Part shown: one piece after another, positions 740-8,549 of the stretch
How positions within the stretch are numbered: position 1 is the first letter of the stretch
How the letters are laid out: each line of letters opens with the position of its first letter
NCBI GenBank assembly: GCA_947631675.1
Contig: CANRMG010000031.1
Location: forward strand, 1-13,256
Direction of reading: 5' to 3'
Origin: an uncultured Oscillospiraceae bacterium
Lineage (GTDB): Bacteria > Bacillota_A > Clostridia > Oscillospirales > Oscillospiraceae
Length of the DNA stretch: 13,256 nt
Notes under the pieces: generated by a model
Databases searched by the model: none
Told to the model about the DNA's origin: nothing
The model's input: only the letters and a program-made list of their open reading frames with translations
Translations under genes and position numbers: made by a program

Positions 740-753
740 GCCTGTGGTACACT
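724..753 (+). promoter_or_regulatory. Sigma-A-type promoter of the lar operon
   Basis: A perfect -35 box TTGACA (724-729) and a -10 box TACACT (748-753) are separated by 18 bases. Transcription would begin around 759-761, giving a leader of about 125 nt before the larB ATG. The -35 box lies in the 3' arm of the upstream terminator hairpin. Evidence is consensus match and position only. Confidence 0.65.
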
Positions 754-758
754 TTTTC

Positions 759-873
759 CGGCAGGGCAGGAAGCCCGCCCCAGGGCGCAGAATGCGCTTT
801 TTATCCCGGCAGACGATACGTACCAGGAAGGTGCCTGCTCCGCAGAGGCGGGGCGGTGCCCTCCTGTTTTTTT
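759..873 (+). promoter_or_regulatory. Structured larB leader: candidate riboswitch/attenuator
   Basis: The untranslated leader can form several hairpins: GGGC-AGGAA-GCCC (764-776), GCGC-AGAAT-GCGC (785-797), GTACC-AGGAA-GGTGC (820-834) and a long terminator hairpin (825-865) with a T7 tract (867-873). CCGG (758-761) can also pair with CCGG (806-809). The 820-834 hairpin and the terminator share bases 825-834, so they cannot form together. GGCAGG, present twice (760-765 and 765-770), can pair with CCTGCT (834-839) in the terminator's left arm, which gives a possible antiterminator. The larB Shine-Dalgarno sequence GGAGG (874-878) starts directly after the T tract. Such a layout is the hallmark of transcription attenuation. 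I do not see the conserved cores of cobalamin, TPP, SAM, Mn or fluoride riboswitches. A NiCo-type (czcD) aptamer is conceivable given the GCAGG/CCTGC outer pairing and the nickel theme, but I cannot confirm it by eye. Confidence 0.6.
825..873 (+). terminator. Intrinsic terminator in the larB leader
   Basis: The upper stem GCTCCGC (837-843) / GCGGGGC (848-854) is closed by the loop AGAG. It continues after a bulged T836 through TGCC/GGTG (832-835 with 855-858, including wobbles) and AGGAAGG/CCCTCCT (825-831 with 859-865, one A-C mismatch). T7 (867-873) follows after one G. It precedes the larB RBS with no gap, so read-through is required to express the operon from the promoter at 724-753. Confidence 0.8.
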
Positions 874-1639: not shown

Positions 1640-2853
1640 AAACGCTGTACTTAGACTGCGCCATGGGCGCGGCGGGGGATATGCTTTCCGCGGCGCTTAT
1701 AGAGCTCCTGCCGGACCCGGCGGGGTTCGTGGAGAAACTCAACAGCCTCGGTATCCCCGGGGTGGAGTATAAGCTGGAAAAGGCCCAAAAGTGCGGCGTC
1801 ACGGGCAGTCATATGGCTGTGCTGGTCCACGGGGAAGAGGAGGAGCATGCCCTGCACCACCATCATGACCATGACCACGAACACGAGCACCACCACGACC
1901 ACGAACACCACCACAGCGGTCTGCACGATGTCGAGCACCTGGTCCGGGACCACTTGGCCCTGCCTGGCAAGGTCAGGGAAGACGTATTGGCGGTGTACGG
2001 GCTCATCGCCCAGGCGGAGAGCCATGTCCACGGCGTGCCCGTGCCGGAGATACACTTTCACGAGGTGGGCACCCTGGACGCGGTGGCGGATGTGACGGCG
2101 GTGTGCCTGGCCATGGCGGAGCTGGCCCCCGATGAGGTGGTGTGCTCGCCGGTGTGCGTGGGCTTCGGCCAGGTGAAGTGCGCCCACGGCATCCTGCCGG
2201 TGCCCGCCCCGGCCACGGCGTATATCCTCAAAGATGTGCCCATCTACGGGGGAGAGATACAGGGGGAGCTGTGCACCCCCACGGGAGCGGCCCTTTTGAA
2301 GCATTTTGTGAGCTCCTTCGGGCCCATGCCCACCGTGCGCCCGGCGGCGGTGGGCTACGGCATGGGGACCAGGGACTTTCCCGCCGCCAACTGCGTCCGG
2401 GCCATCCTGGGCGAGAGCCTGGACGGCGGCATGGATGAAATGCTGGAGCTCAGCTGCAACGTGGACGACATGACCGCAGAGGCGGTGGGCTTTGCCATGG
2501 AGCGGCTTTTTGACGCCGGGGCCCGGGAGGTCTACACCGTGCCCATCGGCATGAAAAAATCCCGGCCCGGCACCCTCCTGCGGGTGATATGCGCTCCGGC
2601 GGAGAGAGAAAAAATGGTGGAGCTGCTCTTTAAATACACCACCACCATCGGCGTCCGGGAGGCGGAGACGAGGCGCTATGTGCTGGCCCGGCGGGAGGAG
2701 ACGCTGGATACCTCCTTCGGCCCTGTGCGGCGGAAAGTATCGGGGGGCTACGGCGTGAGCCGGGTGAAGTATGAGTACGAGGACCTGGCCCGCATCGCCC
2801 GGGAGAAGGGCGTGAGCCTCCGGGAGGCGGAGGACATGGTGGAGGGCCGCTGA
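1636..2853 (+). CDS. larC: LarC, nickel-inserting enzyme of NPN cofactor synthesis
   Basis: LarC is a CTP-dependent cyclometallase that inserts nickel into the dithiodicarboxylate pincer nucleotide, the last step of cofactor assembly. The 405-residue protein begins with the family's LYLDCAMGAAGDMLSAAL signature (residues 4-21). It also has the IHFHEVGTLDAVADV type motif in its first domain and the ELSCNVDDMTAE and IGMKKSRPGTLL type segments in its C-terminal domain. It is one uninterrupted frame, unlike L. plantarum, where larC is made from two frames by programmed frameshifting. Residues 71-97 hold 16 histidines mixed with Asp/Glu, a low-complexity insert that probably binds or buffers nickel (inference). 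The gene overlaps larB by four bases and larE by one base (TGATG), so all three are probably translationally coupled. Confidence 0.94.
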   Translation: MKTLYLDCAMGAAGDMLSAALIELLPDPAGFVEKLNSLGIPGVEYKLEKAQKCGVTGSHMAVLVHGEEEEHALHHHHDHDHEHEHHHDHEHHHSGLHDVEHLVRDHLALPGKVREDVLAVYGLIAQAESHVHGVPVPEIHFHEVGTLDAVADVTAVCLAMAELAPDEVVCSPVCVGFGQVKCAHGILPVPAPATAYILKDVPIYGGEIQGELCTPTGAALLKHFVSSFGPMPTVRPAAVGYGMGTRDFPAANCVRAILGESLDGGMDEMLELSCNVDDMTAEAVGFAMERLFDAGAREVYTVPIGMKKSRPGTLLRVICAPAEREKMVELLFKYTTTIGVREAETRRYVLARREETLDTSFGPVRRKVSGGYGVSRVKYEYEDLARIAREKGVSLREAEDMVEGR

Positions 2854-3652
2854 TGGACGGGCTGCACGAGAAAAGGAAGGCCCTGGAGGAATACCTTCAG
2901 GGGCTGGGGAGCCTGGCGGTGGCCTATTCCGCCGGGGTGGACTCCACGTTCCTGCTGGCCGCGGCCCACGGTGTGCTGGGGGACAGGGTACTGGCCGTGA
3001 CGGCGAGGAGCGTCCTCTGCCCGGAGCGGGAGAGGTCGGAGGCGGAGGCCTTCTGCCGGGCCCGGGGCATAGAACACATCGTTCTTGACTACGACGCTCT
3101 GGCCGTGCCCGGGGTGAAGAACAATCCTCCCGATCGGTGCTACCTGTGCAAAAAGGCCCTGTTCGGGCAGGTGCTCAAGGCGGCCCATGCCCGGGGCATA
3201 GAGCACGTGGCCGAGGGGTCCAACGTGGACGACATGGGCGATTACCGGCCCGGGATGAAGGCCGTGGCGGAGCTGGGGATATTGAGTCCCCTGCGCCGGG
3301 CGGGCCTTGCCAAGGCCGATATCCGCGCCCTTTCCCGGGAGATGGGCCTGCCCACATGGGATAAGCCCAGCATGGCGTGCCTCGCAGCCGCTTCGTCTAC
3401 GGCGAGACGATCACGCCGGAAAAACTTGCCATGGTGGACCGGGCGGAGCAGAAGCTCCTGGACTGGGGCTTTACCCAGATGCGGGTCCGGGTCCACGGGG
3501 ACCTGGCCCGGGTGGAGGCGCCGCCGGAGGACTTTCCCCGGCTCATCGCCCGGGCGGCGGAGCTGGACGAGTATCTGCGCTCCCTGGGCTTTGCCTACGC
3601 GGCCATGGACCTGGGCGGGTATAAGACCGGCAGCATGAACCGAACGCTGTGA
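2853..3652 (+). pseudogene. larE: LarE sulfurtransferase, interrupted by a one-base frameshift
   Basis: LarE is an ATP-dependent PP-loop sulfur insertase that adenylates the pyridinium biscarboxylate and replaces carboxylate oxygen by sulfur. The first frame (from ATG 2853) gives a normal N-terminal domain: PP-loop SAGVDST (26-32), RCYLCK with Cys96 and Cys99, EGSNVDD (121-127) and KPSMACLA with Cys176. It then turns into Arg/Ser/Trp-rich nonsense until a stop at 3638. The expected continuation SRFVYGETIT, then QMRVRVHGDLARVEAP, lies in the next frame and runs to TGA 3650-3652. Adding one C at about 3384-3385 (CTCGCAGCC to CTCGCCAGCC) joins the two parts into about 266 residues, the usual family length. 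No slippery heptamer is visible, so this is either a sequencing/assembly error or a recent inactivating deletion. The three cysteines (96, 99, 176) fit the [4Fe-4S]-dependent LarE subtype rather than the single-cysteine sacrificial type. Confidence 0.88.
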
Positions 3653-4650: not shown

Positions 4651-4688
4651 GGGCGCGTTGAAAACGCGCCCTTGTTTGTTGCTCTTTT
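4651..4688. terminator. Bidirectional terminator between convergent operons
   Basis: The stem GGGCGCGT (4651-4658) / ACGCGCCC (4664-4671) has the loop TGAAA. It is followed on the plus strand by a T-rich tract (TTGTTTGTTGCTCTTTTT) and preceded by an A-rich tract (ATAAAGAAA). It can therefore end both the rightward lar transcript and the leftward nik transcript. Confidence 0.8.
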
Positions 4689-5569
4689 TACAGATCACTT
4701 TCCCTCTTGTTACCGGTGCGGCGCAGCCAGTTGCCCAGCTCGGTGAGGCACAGCAGCGTCAGCACCAAAAACGCCCCGGGGATGAGGATGATCCACCATG
4801 CCCCGGTGGTGAGGGCGTTGTCCGCCTGGGACAAAAGACTGCCCCAGGACACCGTCTCCAGGGGCAGGCCCATGCCCATGAAGCTGAGCGTAGACTCGGC
4901 CAGGATGGCGCTGCGCACGGCCATGACGGACATGAACAGCACCGATGGCATCAGCTCCGGCACCAGGTGGCTGCGGAGGATGTGGAAAAACCCGCCGCCC
5001 ATGGTCCGGGAGGCCATCACATATTCGCTCTGGCCCAGCTGCCGGACCTCCGTGCGCACCACCTTCGCCATGCTCATCCAGCCCGTGGCCCCCACGGCCA
5101 GGGCGATGGTGAGGACACTGGCCCGGCCCATGGCGGCCTGCAGGAGCAGCACCGCCAGCAGGCTGGGCACGCTCAAAACGATCTCACCAAAGCGCATCAG
5201 CGCCCGGTCCAGCCACCCGGGCCCCAGGCCCGCCGCGGCGCCGTAGACGAAGGCGATGGCGGTGGAGATGGCCGCGGCCAGAAGGCCGATGGCCAGGGAC
5301 GTGCGCCCGCCGGACCATATCATGGCGAACAGGTCCCGGCCCAGTGTATCCGTACCGAAAAGAAATTCCCGGCAGGGGGCGCGGGTGTAGTTCGCCAGGT
5401 CCATATAGCCCGGGTCCTTCGCTGTGAAAAGGCCGCTGAAAAGGCAGCCCAGCAGGATAAGGCCCAGCACCGCCGCGGCCCAGAGGGGCGGCTGCTCCCG
5501 CTTCTCCAGCGTGGCCGGGGGCGTGGGCGGAGCGGGGCGGAGGCCCGCCAGCACGAAAAACTCATCCAT
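4688..5569 (-). CDS. nikC: ABC transporter permease, NikC/DppC type
   Basis: This is an inner-membrane permease of the nickel/peptide (family 5) ABC importers, 293 residues, which is normal for the type. A first transmembrane helix lies at about residues 29-48. It is followed by the FGTDTLGRDLFAMIWSGGRTSLAIG segment characteristic of DppC/NikC N-terminal regions and by further hydrophobic helices. An EAA-type cytoplasmic loop (EYVMASRTMGGG... with HLVPELMPS) contacts the ATPase. The ATG is supported by AAGGAGG about 7 bases upstream, inside the end of nikB; the genes overlap by 8 bases. Nickel specificity is inferred from the adjacent metal sensor and lar genes; a peptide substrate cannot be excluded from the sequence. 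No ATPase gene follows; the operon ends at a bidirectional terminator. Confidence 0.82.
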   Translation of the reverse strand: MDEFFVLAGLRPAPPTPPATLEKREQPPLWAAAVLGLILLGCLFSGLFTAKDPGYMDLANYTRAPCREFLFGTDTLGRDLFAMIWSGGRTSLAIGLLAAAISTAIAFVYGAAAGLGPGWLDRALMRFGEIVLSVPSLLAVLLLQAAMGRASVLTIALAVGATGWMSMAKVVRTEVRQLGQSEYVMASRTMGGGFFHILRSHLVPELMPSVLFMSVMAVRSAILAESTLSFMGMGLPLETVSWGSLLSQADNALTTGAWWIILIPGAFLVLTLLCLTELGNWLRRTGNKRESDL

Positions 5570-6551
5570 GGTCCGGCCCCTCCTTCTTTGCCAAGGTGCG
5601 GGGGTCGATGCGCCCGCCCAGGGCCTGGGCCAACAGACTGCAGACCATGACCACCGCTCCGGCCAGCAGGCACAGGGCCATCAGCAGGTCATAGTCCTGA
5701 TACCGGGCGCTCTCATAGGTGAGGGTGCCCAGACCCGGATAGGAGAACACCATCTCCACGATGTAGGTGCTGCCCAGGATATGGGGCAGGTCCAGGGCCA
5801 TGAGGCCGAGGTAGGAGGGCAGGACGTTGCGCATGCAGTGGCGCAGAAGGATCCGCCGGCGGCCAAGCCCCATGGACCCGGCCAGGAGCACATAGTCCGC
5901 GCGGACCTGCTCGGAGAGCATATTGCGGAGCATGTAGGCGTAGTACCAGAGATGCCCCGTCACCACTACGGTAAGCGGCAGCACCAGGTGCTGGGCCCGG
6001 TCTGCCGCAGTGCCGCCGTCCGCCCCCAGGGACCAGGCCCCGGAGCTGGGCAGCAGGCGCAGATACACGGAGAAGATGAGGATGAGCACCAGCGCCAGCC
6101 AAAATTCCGGGATGCAGCTGGTGACGGTGCCAAGTTTACATAATACTTTATCCGGCCACCGGTCCTCGTACCAGATGCACAGCGCGGCCAGCGCCGGGGC
6201 CAGCAGGAAGATGAGGATGAAGCCCGAGCCGCCCAGAAGCAGGGTGTTCCCGGCCCGGTCCCGGATGACCCGGCCCACGTCCTCCCGGTATTTATAGGAT
6301 ATGCCCAGGTCCCCATGGAGGGCGCTTTTCAGCCACTGGGCATACTGGACGGGCAGGGGCTGGTCCAGGCCCAGCTGCTCCTCCGTCCGGGCACGCTCCT
6401 CGGCCGTCAGGCGCTCCGCCCGCTCCCCGTACCAGGCCGTCAGCGGGTCCCCGGGGGCCAGATGGGCCGCCCAGAAGACCGCCAGGGACAGCACGAAAAG
6501 GCTCCCCAGCAGCCCGGGCAGCCTTTTGAAGATGGTGAGCAGAGCGTTCAT
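5562..6551 (-). CDS. nikB: ABC transporter permease, NikB/DppB type
   Basis: This partner permease (329 residues) forms the transmembrane channel with the downstream NikC-like protein. It has the standard N-terminal transmembrane helix of DppB/NikB proteins, then the APGDPLTAWYGE segment and the TEEQLGLDQPLPVQYAQWL motif of this family. Several hydrophobic helices follow, then an EAA loop around ADYVLLAGSMGLGRRRILLRH. The end, before the last transmembrane segment, carries the YPGLGTLTYESARYQDYDLL type pattern. Its RBS (GGAG) overlaps the stop codon of the binding-protein gene upstream, and only 7 bases separate the two, so translation is coupled. Assignment to the family is firm; nickel as substrate is inferred from context. 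Confidence 0.82.
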   Translation of the reverse strand: MNALLTIFKRLPGLLGSLFVLSLAVFWAAHLAPGDPLTAWYGERAERLTAEERARTEEQLGLDQPLPVQYAQWLKSALHGDLGISYKYREDVGRVIRDRAGNTLLLGGSGFILIFLLAPALAALCIWYEDRWPDKVLCKLGTVTSCIPEFWLALVLILIFSVYLRLLPSSGAWSLGADGGTAADRAQHLVLPLTVVVTGHLWYYAYMLRNMLSEQVRADYVLLAGSMGLGRRRILLRHCMRNVLPSYLGLMALDLPHILGSTYIVEMVFSYPGLGTLTYESARYQDYDLLMALCLLAGAVVMVCSLLAQALGGRIDPRTLAKKEGPDHG

Positions 6552-6558
6552 GTTTGTC

Positions 6559-8097
6559 TTACTCCATGGTCCAGTCGGTCACGTTCCAGAAGATGCCCAC
6601 CCCGTGGTGGCCCATGACCGTGTCCGGGTCGATGCCGTGGATGGTGTCTTTGGCCACGTAATCCGCGTCGATATAGGCGATGAAGGCGAAGGCCGGGTCC
6701 GCGGCCAGGGCCTTCTGGAAGGCAGCGTAGGCTTCCCGCCGGGCGGCTGGGTCGTCGGTCTCCCGGGCCTGAGTCAGGTACTTGTCCACGTCGGCGTTGT
6801 AGTAGCCGCTGTAGTTGGCGCCCTTGTCCGTGCCGAAAACTTTGTACGTGTGGTCGTCGGCGTCGAAGGGGCTGCCCCAGCCGATGAGGTAGGCCATCTG
6901 GCCGCCCCAATCCACCACGGCGGGGATGTCCGCCGTCACGTCCAGACCCACTTGGCGCAGCTGCTGGGCCGCGGCCTGGGCCATGCCGATGCGCACGTTG
7001 TCCCCAGCGGGCGCCTCGATGACGAAGCCCAGCCGCTCGCCGCCGCGGTAATAAAAGCCATCCTCGCCCAGCTCTGCCCCGGCGGCCTCCAGAATGGACC
7101 GGGCCCGGTCCGGGTCGTAGTCGTACCGCTCCACGTCCGGGCAGTTATACACATTGCGCTGCAGGGGGCTGTAGGCCGGCTCCCCGTGGCCCAGGAGCAC
7201 CGCGTTCACGATGGCCTGGCGGTCAATGGCGCAGCAGACGGCGGGAATGATGTCGCGGTTTTCGGCCCAGTAGGGATTCCAAAAGTTGAACAGGATGCCC
7301 CGGTAGTCGGAGGTAGTCATGTTATACACATCGTATCCATCCAGACCGGCAAAGGCCTCCGCATCATGGGGGGCGAGCTGGGCCAGGTCCAGTTCGCCGG
7401 AGCGCATCTGCATGGCCTGGACGCTGTCGTCGGGCACGATCTTAAAGATGATCCGGTCGATGTGGGCGGGGCCTTTGAAATAGTCCTCATTCTTTATCAG
7501 CGTGATGGCCTGGCCCTCGTCCCAGCGCTCCAGCCTATAGGGCCCGGTGCCCACGGGATGGCGGAAAAAGTCGGAGGTCTGAAAGTCCTCGCCCTCCAGA
7601 AGGTGCCGGGGCAGGATGGGCATGGTCATATAGTCCAGGAAAGCAACGTTGGGCGCGGAGAGGGTGAAGCGGACGGTATACTCGTCCAGCACGTCAATGG
7701 CCGTTACGTCCTCATAGTTGGGGGCGTTCTCGGAGAGGTTCGCCGGGTCCATGATGGCTTGGATGGTGAATTTCACGTCGGCAGCGGTGAAGGGCTCCCC
7801 GTCGTGCCAGGTGACGCCCGGGCGGAGGTGGAAGGTATAGGAAAAGACGCCGGCGTCATAGTCCCAGCTCTCTGCGAGGCCCGGGACCACGTTATTGTCC
7901 CCGTCGTGAGCGGTGAGGCCGTCGAACAGAAGGATGTTGATCTCCCCGTGCTCGTCCATGGCGGGGTCAATCCGGGTATAGTCCGAGCTTGCGTAGACCA
8001 GGGTGGACTCATCCTCCGCCGCCAGGGCCGGAGCGCCCAGGCCCAGGACCAGCACAGCCGCCAAAAGCAGGGCCGTCAGTTTTTTCAGAATCATCAT
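6559..8097 (-). CDS. nikA: Family 5 substrate-binding protein, NikA-like
   Basis: This is the extracytoplasmic solute receptor of the importer (512 residues, SBP_bac_5 family). A Sec signal peptide is clear: KK at 5-6, a Leu/Ala-rich core and an APALA cleavage region near residues 22-26. There is no cysteine at the cleavage site, so it does not look like a lipoprotein, which is unusual for a Gram-positive receptor. Family signatures are DPAMDEHGEINILLFDGL near the mature N-terminus, FHLRPGVTWHDGEPFTAADV, and PVGTGPYRLERWDEG in the first lobe. The C-terminal stretch with HHGVGIFWNVTDW contains two adjacent histidines. Two ATG codons stand in tandem (8097 and 8094); the first is used here. An AAGGGAAGG sequence precedes them. 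Divergent from a metal-sensor gene, which together with the lar operon suggests nickel (or another transition metal complex) as ligand; peptide binding is the alternative. Confidence 0.78.
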   Translation of the reverse strand: MMILKKLTALLLAAVLVLGLGAPALAAEDESTLVYASSDYTRIDPAMDEHGEINILLFDGLTAHDGDNNVVPGLAESWDYDAGVFSYTFHLRPGVTWHDGEPFTAADVKFTIQAIMDPANLSENAPNYEDVTAIDVLDEYTVRFTLSAPNVAFLDYMTMPILPRHLLEGEDFQTSDFFRHPVGTGPYRLERWDEGQAITLIKNEDYFKGPAHIDRIIFKIVPDDSVQAMQMRSGELDLAQLAPHDAEAFAGLDGYDVYNMTTSDYRGILFNFWNPYWAENRDIIPAVCCAIDRQAIVNAVLLGHGEPAYSPLQRNVYNCPDVERYDYDPDRARSILEAAGAELGEDGFYYRGGERLGFVIEAPAGDNVRIGMAQAAAQQLRQVGLDVTADIPAVVDWGGQMAYLIGWGSPFDADDHTYKVFGTDKGANYSGYYNADVDKYLTQARETDDPAARREAYAAFQKALAADPAFAFIAYIDADYVAKDTIHGIDPDTVMGHHGVGIFWNVTDWTME

Positions 8098-8213: not shown

Positions 8214-8549
8214 ATGTCCGAACAGCACGACCAGGTCCATGACCACGAGTATATGCACGCCCACGGCATCGCCCACAGCCACGGCCATGTCCATGAAAAC
8301 CAGAAGGCGGTGGTGAACCGGCTGGCCCGGGCCATCGGCCACTTGGAGAAGGTGAAGCGGATGGTGGAGGAGGGGGCGGACTGCTCCGAGGTGCTCATCC
8401 AGCTGGCGGCGGTGCGCTCGGCTCTTGGCAGCACGGGCAAGGTGATCTTGCAGGACCATATGCGCCACTGTATGGTGGATGCCATCAACGCCGGGGACCA
8501 GGCCGCCGTGGACGAGCTGTGCCAGGCGGTGGAAAAGCTCATAAAATGA
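8214..8549 (+). CDS. CsoR/RcnR/InrS-family metal-sensing repressor
   Basis: This 111-residue protein belongs to the all-helical DUF156 family of tetrameric repressors that release DNA on binding Cu, Ni, Co or reactive electrophiles. The core begins at about residue 30 with the family's NRLARAIGHLEKVKRMVEEG helix. Putative ligands are Cys57, His82 and Cys86 (C-x24-H-x3-C), the spacing of CsoR and of the cyanobacterial nickel sensor InrS, not the His/Cys/His/His set of RcnR. An N-terminal extension of about 28 residues carries nine histidines (5, 9, 11, 15, 17, 21, 23, 25, 27), which would fit nickel or cobalt capture and could supply an InrS-like fourth ligand. It is divergent from the nikABC-like operon and probably controls it. 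GGAG (8204-8207) precedes the ATG. The family is certain; nickel rather than copper is inferred from context and the His-rich tail. Confidence 0.88.
   Translation: MSEQHDQVHDHEYMHAHGIAHSHGHVHENQKAVVNRLARAIGHLEKVKRMVEEGADCSEVLIQLAAVRSALGSTGKVILQDHMRHCMVDAINAGDQAAVDELCQAVEKLIK

Follow-up and report, generated by a model that had tools for sequence, protein, structure and literature searches.

GAA-hairpin leaders: a conserved family of putative transcription-attenuating RNAs ahead of larB and other nickel-related genes, with DUF3842 as candidate factor

Several described systems bear on the leader that we discuss here, which lies ahead of larB, a gene for nickel-pincer nucleotide (NPN) cofactor biosynthesis. 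The NiCo (czcD) riboswitch serves nickel-related regulation in Clostridia and is linked to exporters, the cobalamin riboswitch regulon brings cofactor synthesis, metal uptake and precursor uptake under joint control, and the guanidine-II riboswitch has two hairpins with short conserved loops (consensus ACGR) and a variable linker. In the case of HutP the gene lies upstream of the terminator that is regulated. On the Bacillus subtilis hut leader HutP is described as a ligand-activated RNA-binding protein that prevents terminator formation (PMC7430163). The ANTAR proteins (EutV, NasR, AmiR) are described as having targets made of tandem small hairpins with conserved loops, the loops being hexaloops with A1 and G4, in which a later hairpin overlaps the terminator and protein binding leads to read-through (PMC3369931). 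Our larB leader is at 759-873 of a 13,256-nucleotide (nt) stretch from an uncultured Oscillospiraceae bacterium (contig CANRMG010000031.1), the whole of which we refer to as the window. By comparison with its relatives the leader is real and conserved, and we place it in an undescribed cis-regulatory RNA family, here named GAA-hairpin leaders. The best explanation, which we think rather probable, is that the leader would switch NPN biosynthesis and associated uptake by transcription attenuation, with DUF3842 as candidate factor.

In the window the leader, on the + strand, comprises two small hairpins, H1 (760-779, loop AGGAA at 768-772) and H2 (782-800, loop AGAAU at 789-793), both predicted by folding and both conserved and covarying, then a linker (801-819) whose length varies across the family, and then two structures that exclude each other. 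The first of these, H3 (820-834, GUACC-AGGAA-GGUGC, loop 825-829), is the putative antiterminator, identified by covariation and linked changes, and its 3' arm is part of the left arm of the second, H4, an intrinsic terminator stem-loop (824-866) supported by folding and covariation. The terminator U7 tract (T7 in the DNA, 867-873) abuts GGAGG (874-878), which we read as the larB ribosome-binding site. Upstream, also on the + strand, there is a sigma-70-type promoter read from the sequence (724-753), with TTGACA at 724-729, an 18-nt spacer, TACACT at 748-753 and a TG ahead of the -10. It is the sole promoter-like site that a scan found in 600-1000 (0.1 expected by chance), and we infer a transcription start near 758-761. 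A hexamer TANNNT ends no more than 12 nt from the modelled start in 45 of 53 leaders of the alignment that we call A9, as against 21.7 in shuffled upstream DNA, and in 28 of 29 leaders of a second alignment, A12, as against 10.6 in shuffles; because this hexamer sits so close, the RNA probably starts at H1. The initial annotation, made from the sequence of the window, had pointed to a consensus promoter, to a terminator hairpin with T7 abutting the larB Shine-Dalgarno sequence, and to a hairpin at 820-834 able to exclude the left arm of the terminator, and all three hold up, the last by covariation. It had also proposed GGCAGG copies at 760-770 as an antiterminator partner; the GGCAGGGCAGG string is indeed present at 760-770 but forms the left side of H1 in the conserved fold.

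Folding energy alone would not support the leader, as it is not unusually stable (z -1.37, with 20 of 200 shuffles folding equally well), and a scan for short-stem terminators found 1 with 0.4 expected; the evidence is conservation. That energy, and a promoter that overlaps an upstream terminator-like repeat, are what could be said for an ordinary intergenic terminator with hairpins that have no regulatory role, a reading that we regard as highly improbable since the alternative structures covary in sets of 53 and 29 leaders and the genes downstream are consistently of one set, both of which contradict it. The repeat itself is an inverted repeat at about 696-739 with a T-run behind it and probably serves the amidohydrolase-like gene upstream as terminator, and the -35 box TTGACA overlaps its right arm; the Rfam 6C RNA model has a weak match at 672-739 (18.8 bits, gathering threshold 47).

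To assemble the family the best 80 of 583 confirmed LarB relatives were kept as loci, and the same arrangement was seen in the upstream DNA of several of them. A covariance model built from 10 sequences (R1, from alignment A3) found leaders outside its seed when run over the window and the 80 loci, for example L049, L022, L047 and L079 (E 6e-13 to 9e-10), and one good match, L085, in 30 additional LarB loci. A second model, R2, was built from 41 leaders, and a third, R3, from 29 leaders of a later scan from which the window was excluded, the nearest member being 69% identical to the window; A12 consists of these 29, two of which are identical to leaders of A9 (L033, L079) and one 93% like L007. 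R3 detects the window leader at 759-864 (E 1.3e-7) as its sole match in the window.

The family layout is that of the window: H1 and H2, a variable linker, and H3 sharing a strand with H4, which starts within it. H1 has a stem of about 6 base pairs and mostly a loop of 4-5 nt (AGGAA, AGAA, AUGAA, ACGAA, AAGAA), the H2 loop is mostly AGAA or UGAA, and H3 is typically GUAUGC-(U/C)NNGAA-GGCAUAC or similar. The loop GAA is present in H1, H2 and H3 in 45, 43 and 43 of the 53 A9 leaders and in 27, 24 and 29 of the 29 in A12. It is also found in the loop of H4 (37/53 and 16/29), where it is not needed for antitermination. The stretch between H2 and H3 runs from 17 to 156 nt in A9, with a median of 37.

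A9 was fitted to R2, and both alignments were fitted to H1, H2 and H4, with H3 outside the model. For H1, H2 and H4 together, 93.3% of positions are paired in A9 and both partners have changed in 22 of 24 pairs; none of 500 shuffles reaches any of five measures, and slid partners are 38-58% paired. The A12 figures are 95.6% and again 22 of 24. H3 is 90.9% paired in A9 with 6 of 7 pairs doubly changed (slid versions 22-55% paired), and 93.6% paired in A12 with 5 of 7, and in both alignments its paired percentage and covariation score lie above all 500 shuffles. These counts are inflated by related sequences, with near-copies in A9 such as L113/L119 and L161/L163. The column common to H3 and H4 shows linked three-position changes, with GCG in 25, ATA in 13, ATG in 11 and others in 4 of the 53 A9 leaders, and GCG in 12, ATG in 8, ATA in 7 and GTG in 2 of the 29 in A12. 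As H3 and H4 covary with linked changes at their common column, both of the exclusive folds look selected. Transcription attenuation is marked by a conserved antiterminator and an intrinsic terminator that exclude each other, and that is what we find, by sequence comparison only. The initial annotation had named conservation ahead of larB orthologues and covariation in the collected leaders as what would support it. The conservation is partial, R3 matching 17 of 81 sources (the window and 80 LarB loci) at E <1e-4, and is linked to nickel-type genes; H1, H2, H3 and H4 covary in both A9 and A12.

The genes that follow the leader form a consistent set. The RNA precedes lar genes, nickel-type ATP-binding cassette (ABC) transporter genes, FecCD and CbiM importer genes, and genes for S-components of energy-coupling factor (ECF) transporters, often with a nucleoside-kinase-like gene. 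Two small membrane proteins, for which we use the working labels MACFL and MTLL, are encoded as a pair ahead of lar genes in several loci and without lar genes in the fetched flank in others; those of L112 (682-1415, minus strand), the sole example scanned, have no Pfam or NCBIfam match. R1 gave 27 matches in 25 of 391 Clostridia genomes at E<=0.01, and at E<=1e-3 20 of 23 matches precede regulon-type genes, the remaining three being L123, L127 and L131. In that scan the leader stands before lar genes, with or without the pair, in L112, L113, L114, L116, L118, L119 and L122, and before the pair alone in L121, L129 and L136. It stands before FecCD-ATPase-SBP-larE-larB-larC (SBP, substrate-binding protein) in L111, before an SBP-ATPase-ATPase-OppB-OppC-larE-larB-larC operon in L117, where the SBP is 70% identical to the protein encoded at 6559-8097 of the window, before a methyltransferase gene and then Nik/Opp-type transporter genes in L115, and before ECF S-component genes in seven loci (L120, L124, L125, L126, L128, L130, L137).

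R2 extended this to other groups. Among 250 genomes from the class to which Acidaminococcus (G542) belongs, 6 had matches at E<=1e-3, and in 3 of the 6 the match is plausible: L150, which is the operon of L037, L151 before a methyltransferase-Opp operon, and L153 before CbiM. In 188 genomes of the order of G516 there were 15 matches in 12 genomes, 14 plausible by context and one, L165, not; L115, L122 and L136 recur, and the others stand before the pair alone (L156, L158), the pair with larE (L160), larB (L161-L164), CbiM (L157), a CfbC/NifH-like operon with FecBCD-type genes (L166) and SBP genes (L167, and L159 as judged from sequence only). The largest yield came from 394 genomes of the order of G001, with 62 matches in 61 genomes at E<=1e-4, and all of the best 30 of the 62 fit the regulon: lar genes in 12, the pair alone in 1, ECF/kinase genes in 12 (the kinase visible in the flank of 4), SBP family-5 genes in 2, FecCD in 2 and CbiM in 1. 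Of these 30 leaders 27 are new, L235 being the locus of L085 and L211 and L233 repeats of L033 and L079.

LarC is present in the five genomes from the first two R2 scans with the leader before a stand-alone importer gene (G731, G962, G749, G828, G837), which is weak evidence since it is likewise present in the other six genomes of that check. Among the seven genomes of the R1 scan with the ECF type LarC is present in G380 and G491, was not found in G198, G232, G431 and G325, and is only a distant 74-bit match in G514, while LarA (Lar_N) is present in G325, G431 and G491, below cut-off in G380, and was not found in G198, G232 and G514. In L120, L124, L130 and L137 the ECF gene adjoins a relative of uridine kinase and phosphoribulokinase. 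An ECF S-component gene together with a uridine-kinase-like gene is seen under the leader in L120, L124, L232 and others, and the L120 kinase-like gene has a long N-terminal part with no Pfam match. The combination suggests that an NPN-related nucleoside may be taken up and phosphorylated again. The second candidate for the ligand is nickel, as Nik-type and CbiM importers are under leader control. In L171 (2353-8789) the leader precedes a NifH/CfbC-like gene, an Oxidored_nitro gene and FecBCD-type importer genes, possibly a further nickel-linked system.

Such a regulon, of biosynthesis with metal-type and precursor-type uptake, resembles that of a cofactor riboswitch, and there is no single protein family that all RNA-bearing genomes are shown to have. 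Both speak for a true riboswitch, in which the naked RNA would bind NPN, a precursor (for example a nicotinate nucleotide) or Ni2+/Co2+ and the ligand would stabilise H3, the tandem hairpins being used much as the guanidine-II riboswitch uses its two. However there is no compact conserved core, the H2-H3 linker varies over the range given above, H1 or H2 can be lacking, and conservation is limited to the loop GAA, closing pairs and H3 stems. We favour a protein-bound antiterminator because the number and spacing of the hairpins vary around one loop consensus and a DUF3842 gene neighbours the leader, and we regard the riboswitch as unlikely. The initial annotation had seen an unassigned transcription-attenuating riboswitch ahead of larB: an unassigned attenuating leader is what covariation supports, but protein binding is more probable than ligand binding by the RNA.

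The evidence for DUF3842 (PF12953) is adjacency and co-occurrence. Of the 53 A9 leaders 18 are preceded on their own strand by a gene of this family, at spacings from an overlap of about 35 nt (L164) to 360 nt (L009), several fetched flanks being too short to reveal one, and it is directly upstream, 27-101 nt away, in 15 of the 30 examined loci of the order of G001, 14 of them new. It was found in 32 of 35 genomes with the RNA and in 13 of 35 without (Fisher p 1.6e-6, uncorrected for kinship), the controls being the first listed genomes without an RNA match. Some of those controls do carry such leaders: in G173 one was missed by the strict filters (E 3e-5), in G164 and G172 minimal GAA-hairpin leaders can be seen by eye before ECF genes (E 0.56 and 0.4), and in G547 one can be seen by eye before cbiM. 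In a tree of 50 DUF3842 proteins a clade of 32 (support 98/92) contains all 18 leader-adjacent proteins. This adjacent clade is represented in 26 of the 35 RNA-bearing genomes, and among the controls only by the protein of G173. A structure predicted from 20 sequences is Rossmann-like (predicted local distance difference test score, pLDDT, 82.7; predicted template modelling score, pTM, 0.81), the structures that match it best, at middling Z, are for the most part Rossmann folds that bind nucleotides, and invariant residues include D7, Q9, GG, N36, K45, D66 and C107. A search for a solved relative of DUF3842 gave none at E <0.05, and no paper naming the family was found in the open-licence literature.

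The mechanism that we propose would run as follows. Transcription would start near H1, and H4 folded in isolation (822-866) is far more stable than most of H3 (821-835), at -30.8 as against -2.3 kcal/mol, so that the terminator should win unaided and termination would be the default. A factor would grip the emerging hairpins H1, H2 and H3 by their GAA loops and hold H3, excluding the terminator, and RNA polymerase would then read through into larBCE. Binding is taken to turn the operon on because H1, H2 and H3 have a common loop consensus while H3 excludes the terminator. The best candidate for the factor is the Rossmann-like DUF3842 protein, which may sense NPN, a precursor or nickel.

A number of observations weigh against this proposal. 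Of the 35 genomes with the RNA three (G332, G001, G962) gave no DUF3842 match, though these may be incomplete, and six further ones have the protein only outside the adjacent clade. It has no recognised RNA-binding domain, and there is no DUF3842 gene within the window; regulation of the window operon depends on whether its genome has one. Inherited gene order could likewise account for the adjacency of DUF3842 and leader. With regard to the RNA, R3 has no match at E <1e-4 in 64 of the 81 sources, although some fetched flanks may stop short of the operon start, and H1 or H2 is missing or unrecognisable in L009, L042, L079, L130, L131 and L137. In L001, the relative nearest to the window (LarB 92% identical), the leader (2380-2490) is degraded, with an H1 loop that lacks GAA; it is reported by none of R1, R2 and R3, and DUF3842 was not found in the L001 genome. 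For H3, 72 of 500 A9 shuffles and 24 of 500 A12 shuffles have at least as many doubly changed pairs, and 6 and 8 of 500 at least as many pair types, and in A12 H3 slid by +2 likewise shows 5 doubly changed pairs, at 59% paired.

The DUF3842 data could also be read as antitermination by another protein, with DUF3842 a protein of NPN or nickel metabolism that travels with the regulon. Its absence from the adjacent clade or from the genome in 9 of 35 cases fits this, as does the occurrence of other DUF3842 genes in unrelated contexts, and in L170 the gene is at the end of the controlled operon. In L199 (5550-5707) DUF3842 is directly upstream of larE-larB with no recognisable leader between. Against it DUF3842 is repeatedly upstream of the leader and outside the controlled operon, a usual site of a dedicated regulator, and the known candidate, ANTAR, present in 18 of 31 genomes with the RNA, was not found in the other 13, which may be incomplete. 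ANTAR target RNA was rejected as an identity for the leader since the loop tables of A9 and A12 do not follow the hexaloop rule. We judge another protein improbable, and retain DUF3842 as candidate. It is a bolder and rather doubtful proposal that DUF3842 may be the founding family of a class of RNA-binding antiterminators that have a Rossmann fold, respond to NPN or nickel and read tandem GAA-loop hairpins, with the NPN economy of anaerobic Firmicutes as regulon. If true, the DUF3842 regulon would be LarBCE synthesis and nickel uptake by Nik-type, FecBCD-type or CbiM importers, and organisms without LarC would salvage an NPN-related nucleoside via an ECF transporter and a nucleoside-kinase-like enzyme.

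The family may extend beyond the R2 model: in the interval of L198 (10489-10783, genome G828) that separates DUF3842 from an SBP-FecCD operon, loops of ACGAA, CGAA and AUGAA can be seen by eye on hairpins that R2 does not report.

The leader has no match among the families of Rfam 15. A scan of the window against Rfam 15 at gathering thresholds gave no match, nor did 20 loci; at E<=10 the region 660-1000 gave only chance families, and sets of 4 and 8 loci gave no riboswitch. Membership of the NiCo, NAD and cobalamin riboswitch classes, which the initial annotation had put forward for scanning, finds no support, as no covariance-model score reaches the family threshold in the sequences scanned, and neither does its suggestion of a NiCo (czcD-type) aptamer. 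The open-licence literature yielded no description of such a regulator for NPN cofactor synthesis, and no paper that pairs 'nickel pincer' with 'riboswitch' or larB with leader, terminator and nickel.

With regard to the rest of the window, the 3' end of the amidohydrolase-like gene (1-687) matches TIGR01891 under its cut-off. The lar genes are on the + strand: larB at 884-1639 (NF033503, 281 bits against a cut-off of 175), larC at 1636-2853 (TIGR00299 and NF052512, both above cut-off), and larE at 2853-3652, identified by profile match, with a reading frame broken near 3380. The larE frame 2853-3638 (261 amino acids) covers just profile positions 1-175 of 259, and a second frame is open at 3377-3652. 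LarC carries a His-rich stretch (1855-1920). Further on are Opp/Nik-type ABC transporter genes (4688-8097) and, divergent from them, a CsoR/RcnR-type repressor gene with a His-rich start (8214-8549), all under NCBIfam cut-offs; no GAA-hairpin leader was found in this region, though one does control a homologous transporter in L139.

What results is a regulon, with matches in 61 of 394 genomes of one order, and a switch mechanism that can be tested. DUF3842 gains an initial clue to its function, nickel importers connected with NPN can now be sought, and for bacteria with a LarA domain that lack LarC there is a specific hypothesis, namely NPN salvage.

In comparison with the described systems, GAA-hairpin leaders differ from the NiCo riboswitch in preceding uptake and biosynthesis genes, not exporters, and have no Rfam match in the leaders scanned. 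They share with the cobalamin riboswitch the joint control of cofactor synthesis and of metal and precursor uptake, but consist of simple hairpins with no large aptamer and no cobalamin family match. The short, conserved hairpin loops and the linker of variable length recall guanidine-II, although the loops have GAA in place of ACGR and there is no Rfam match. The tandem small hairpins with conserved loops, the later one overlapping the terminator, are much as in ANTAR targets, but in place of hexaloops there are mostly loops of 4-5 nt with GAA at the end. In the case of HutP the RNA and the candidate protein are different, GAA-loop hairpins and DUF3842 being particular to the present system, and the likeness is in protein-dependent antitermination, with DUF3842, from adjacency and co-occurrence, the candidate for a ligand-activated factor in the manner of HutP.
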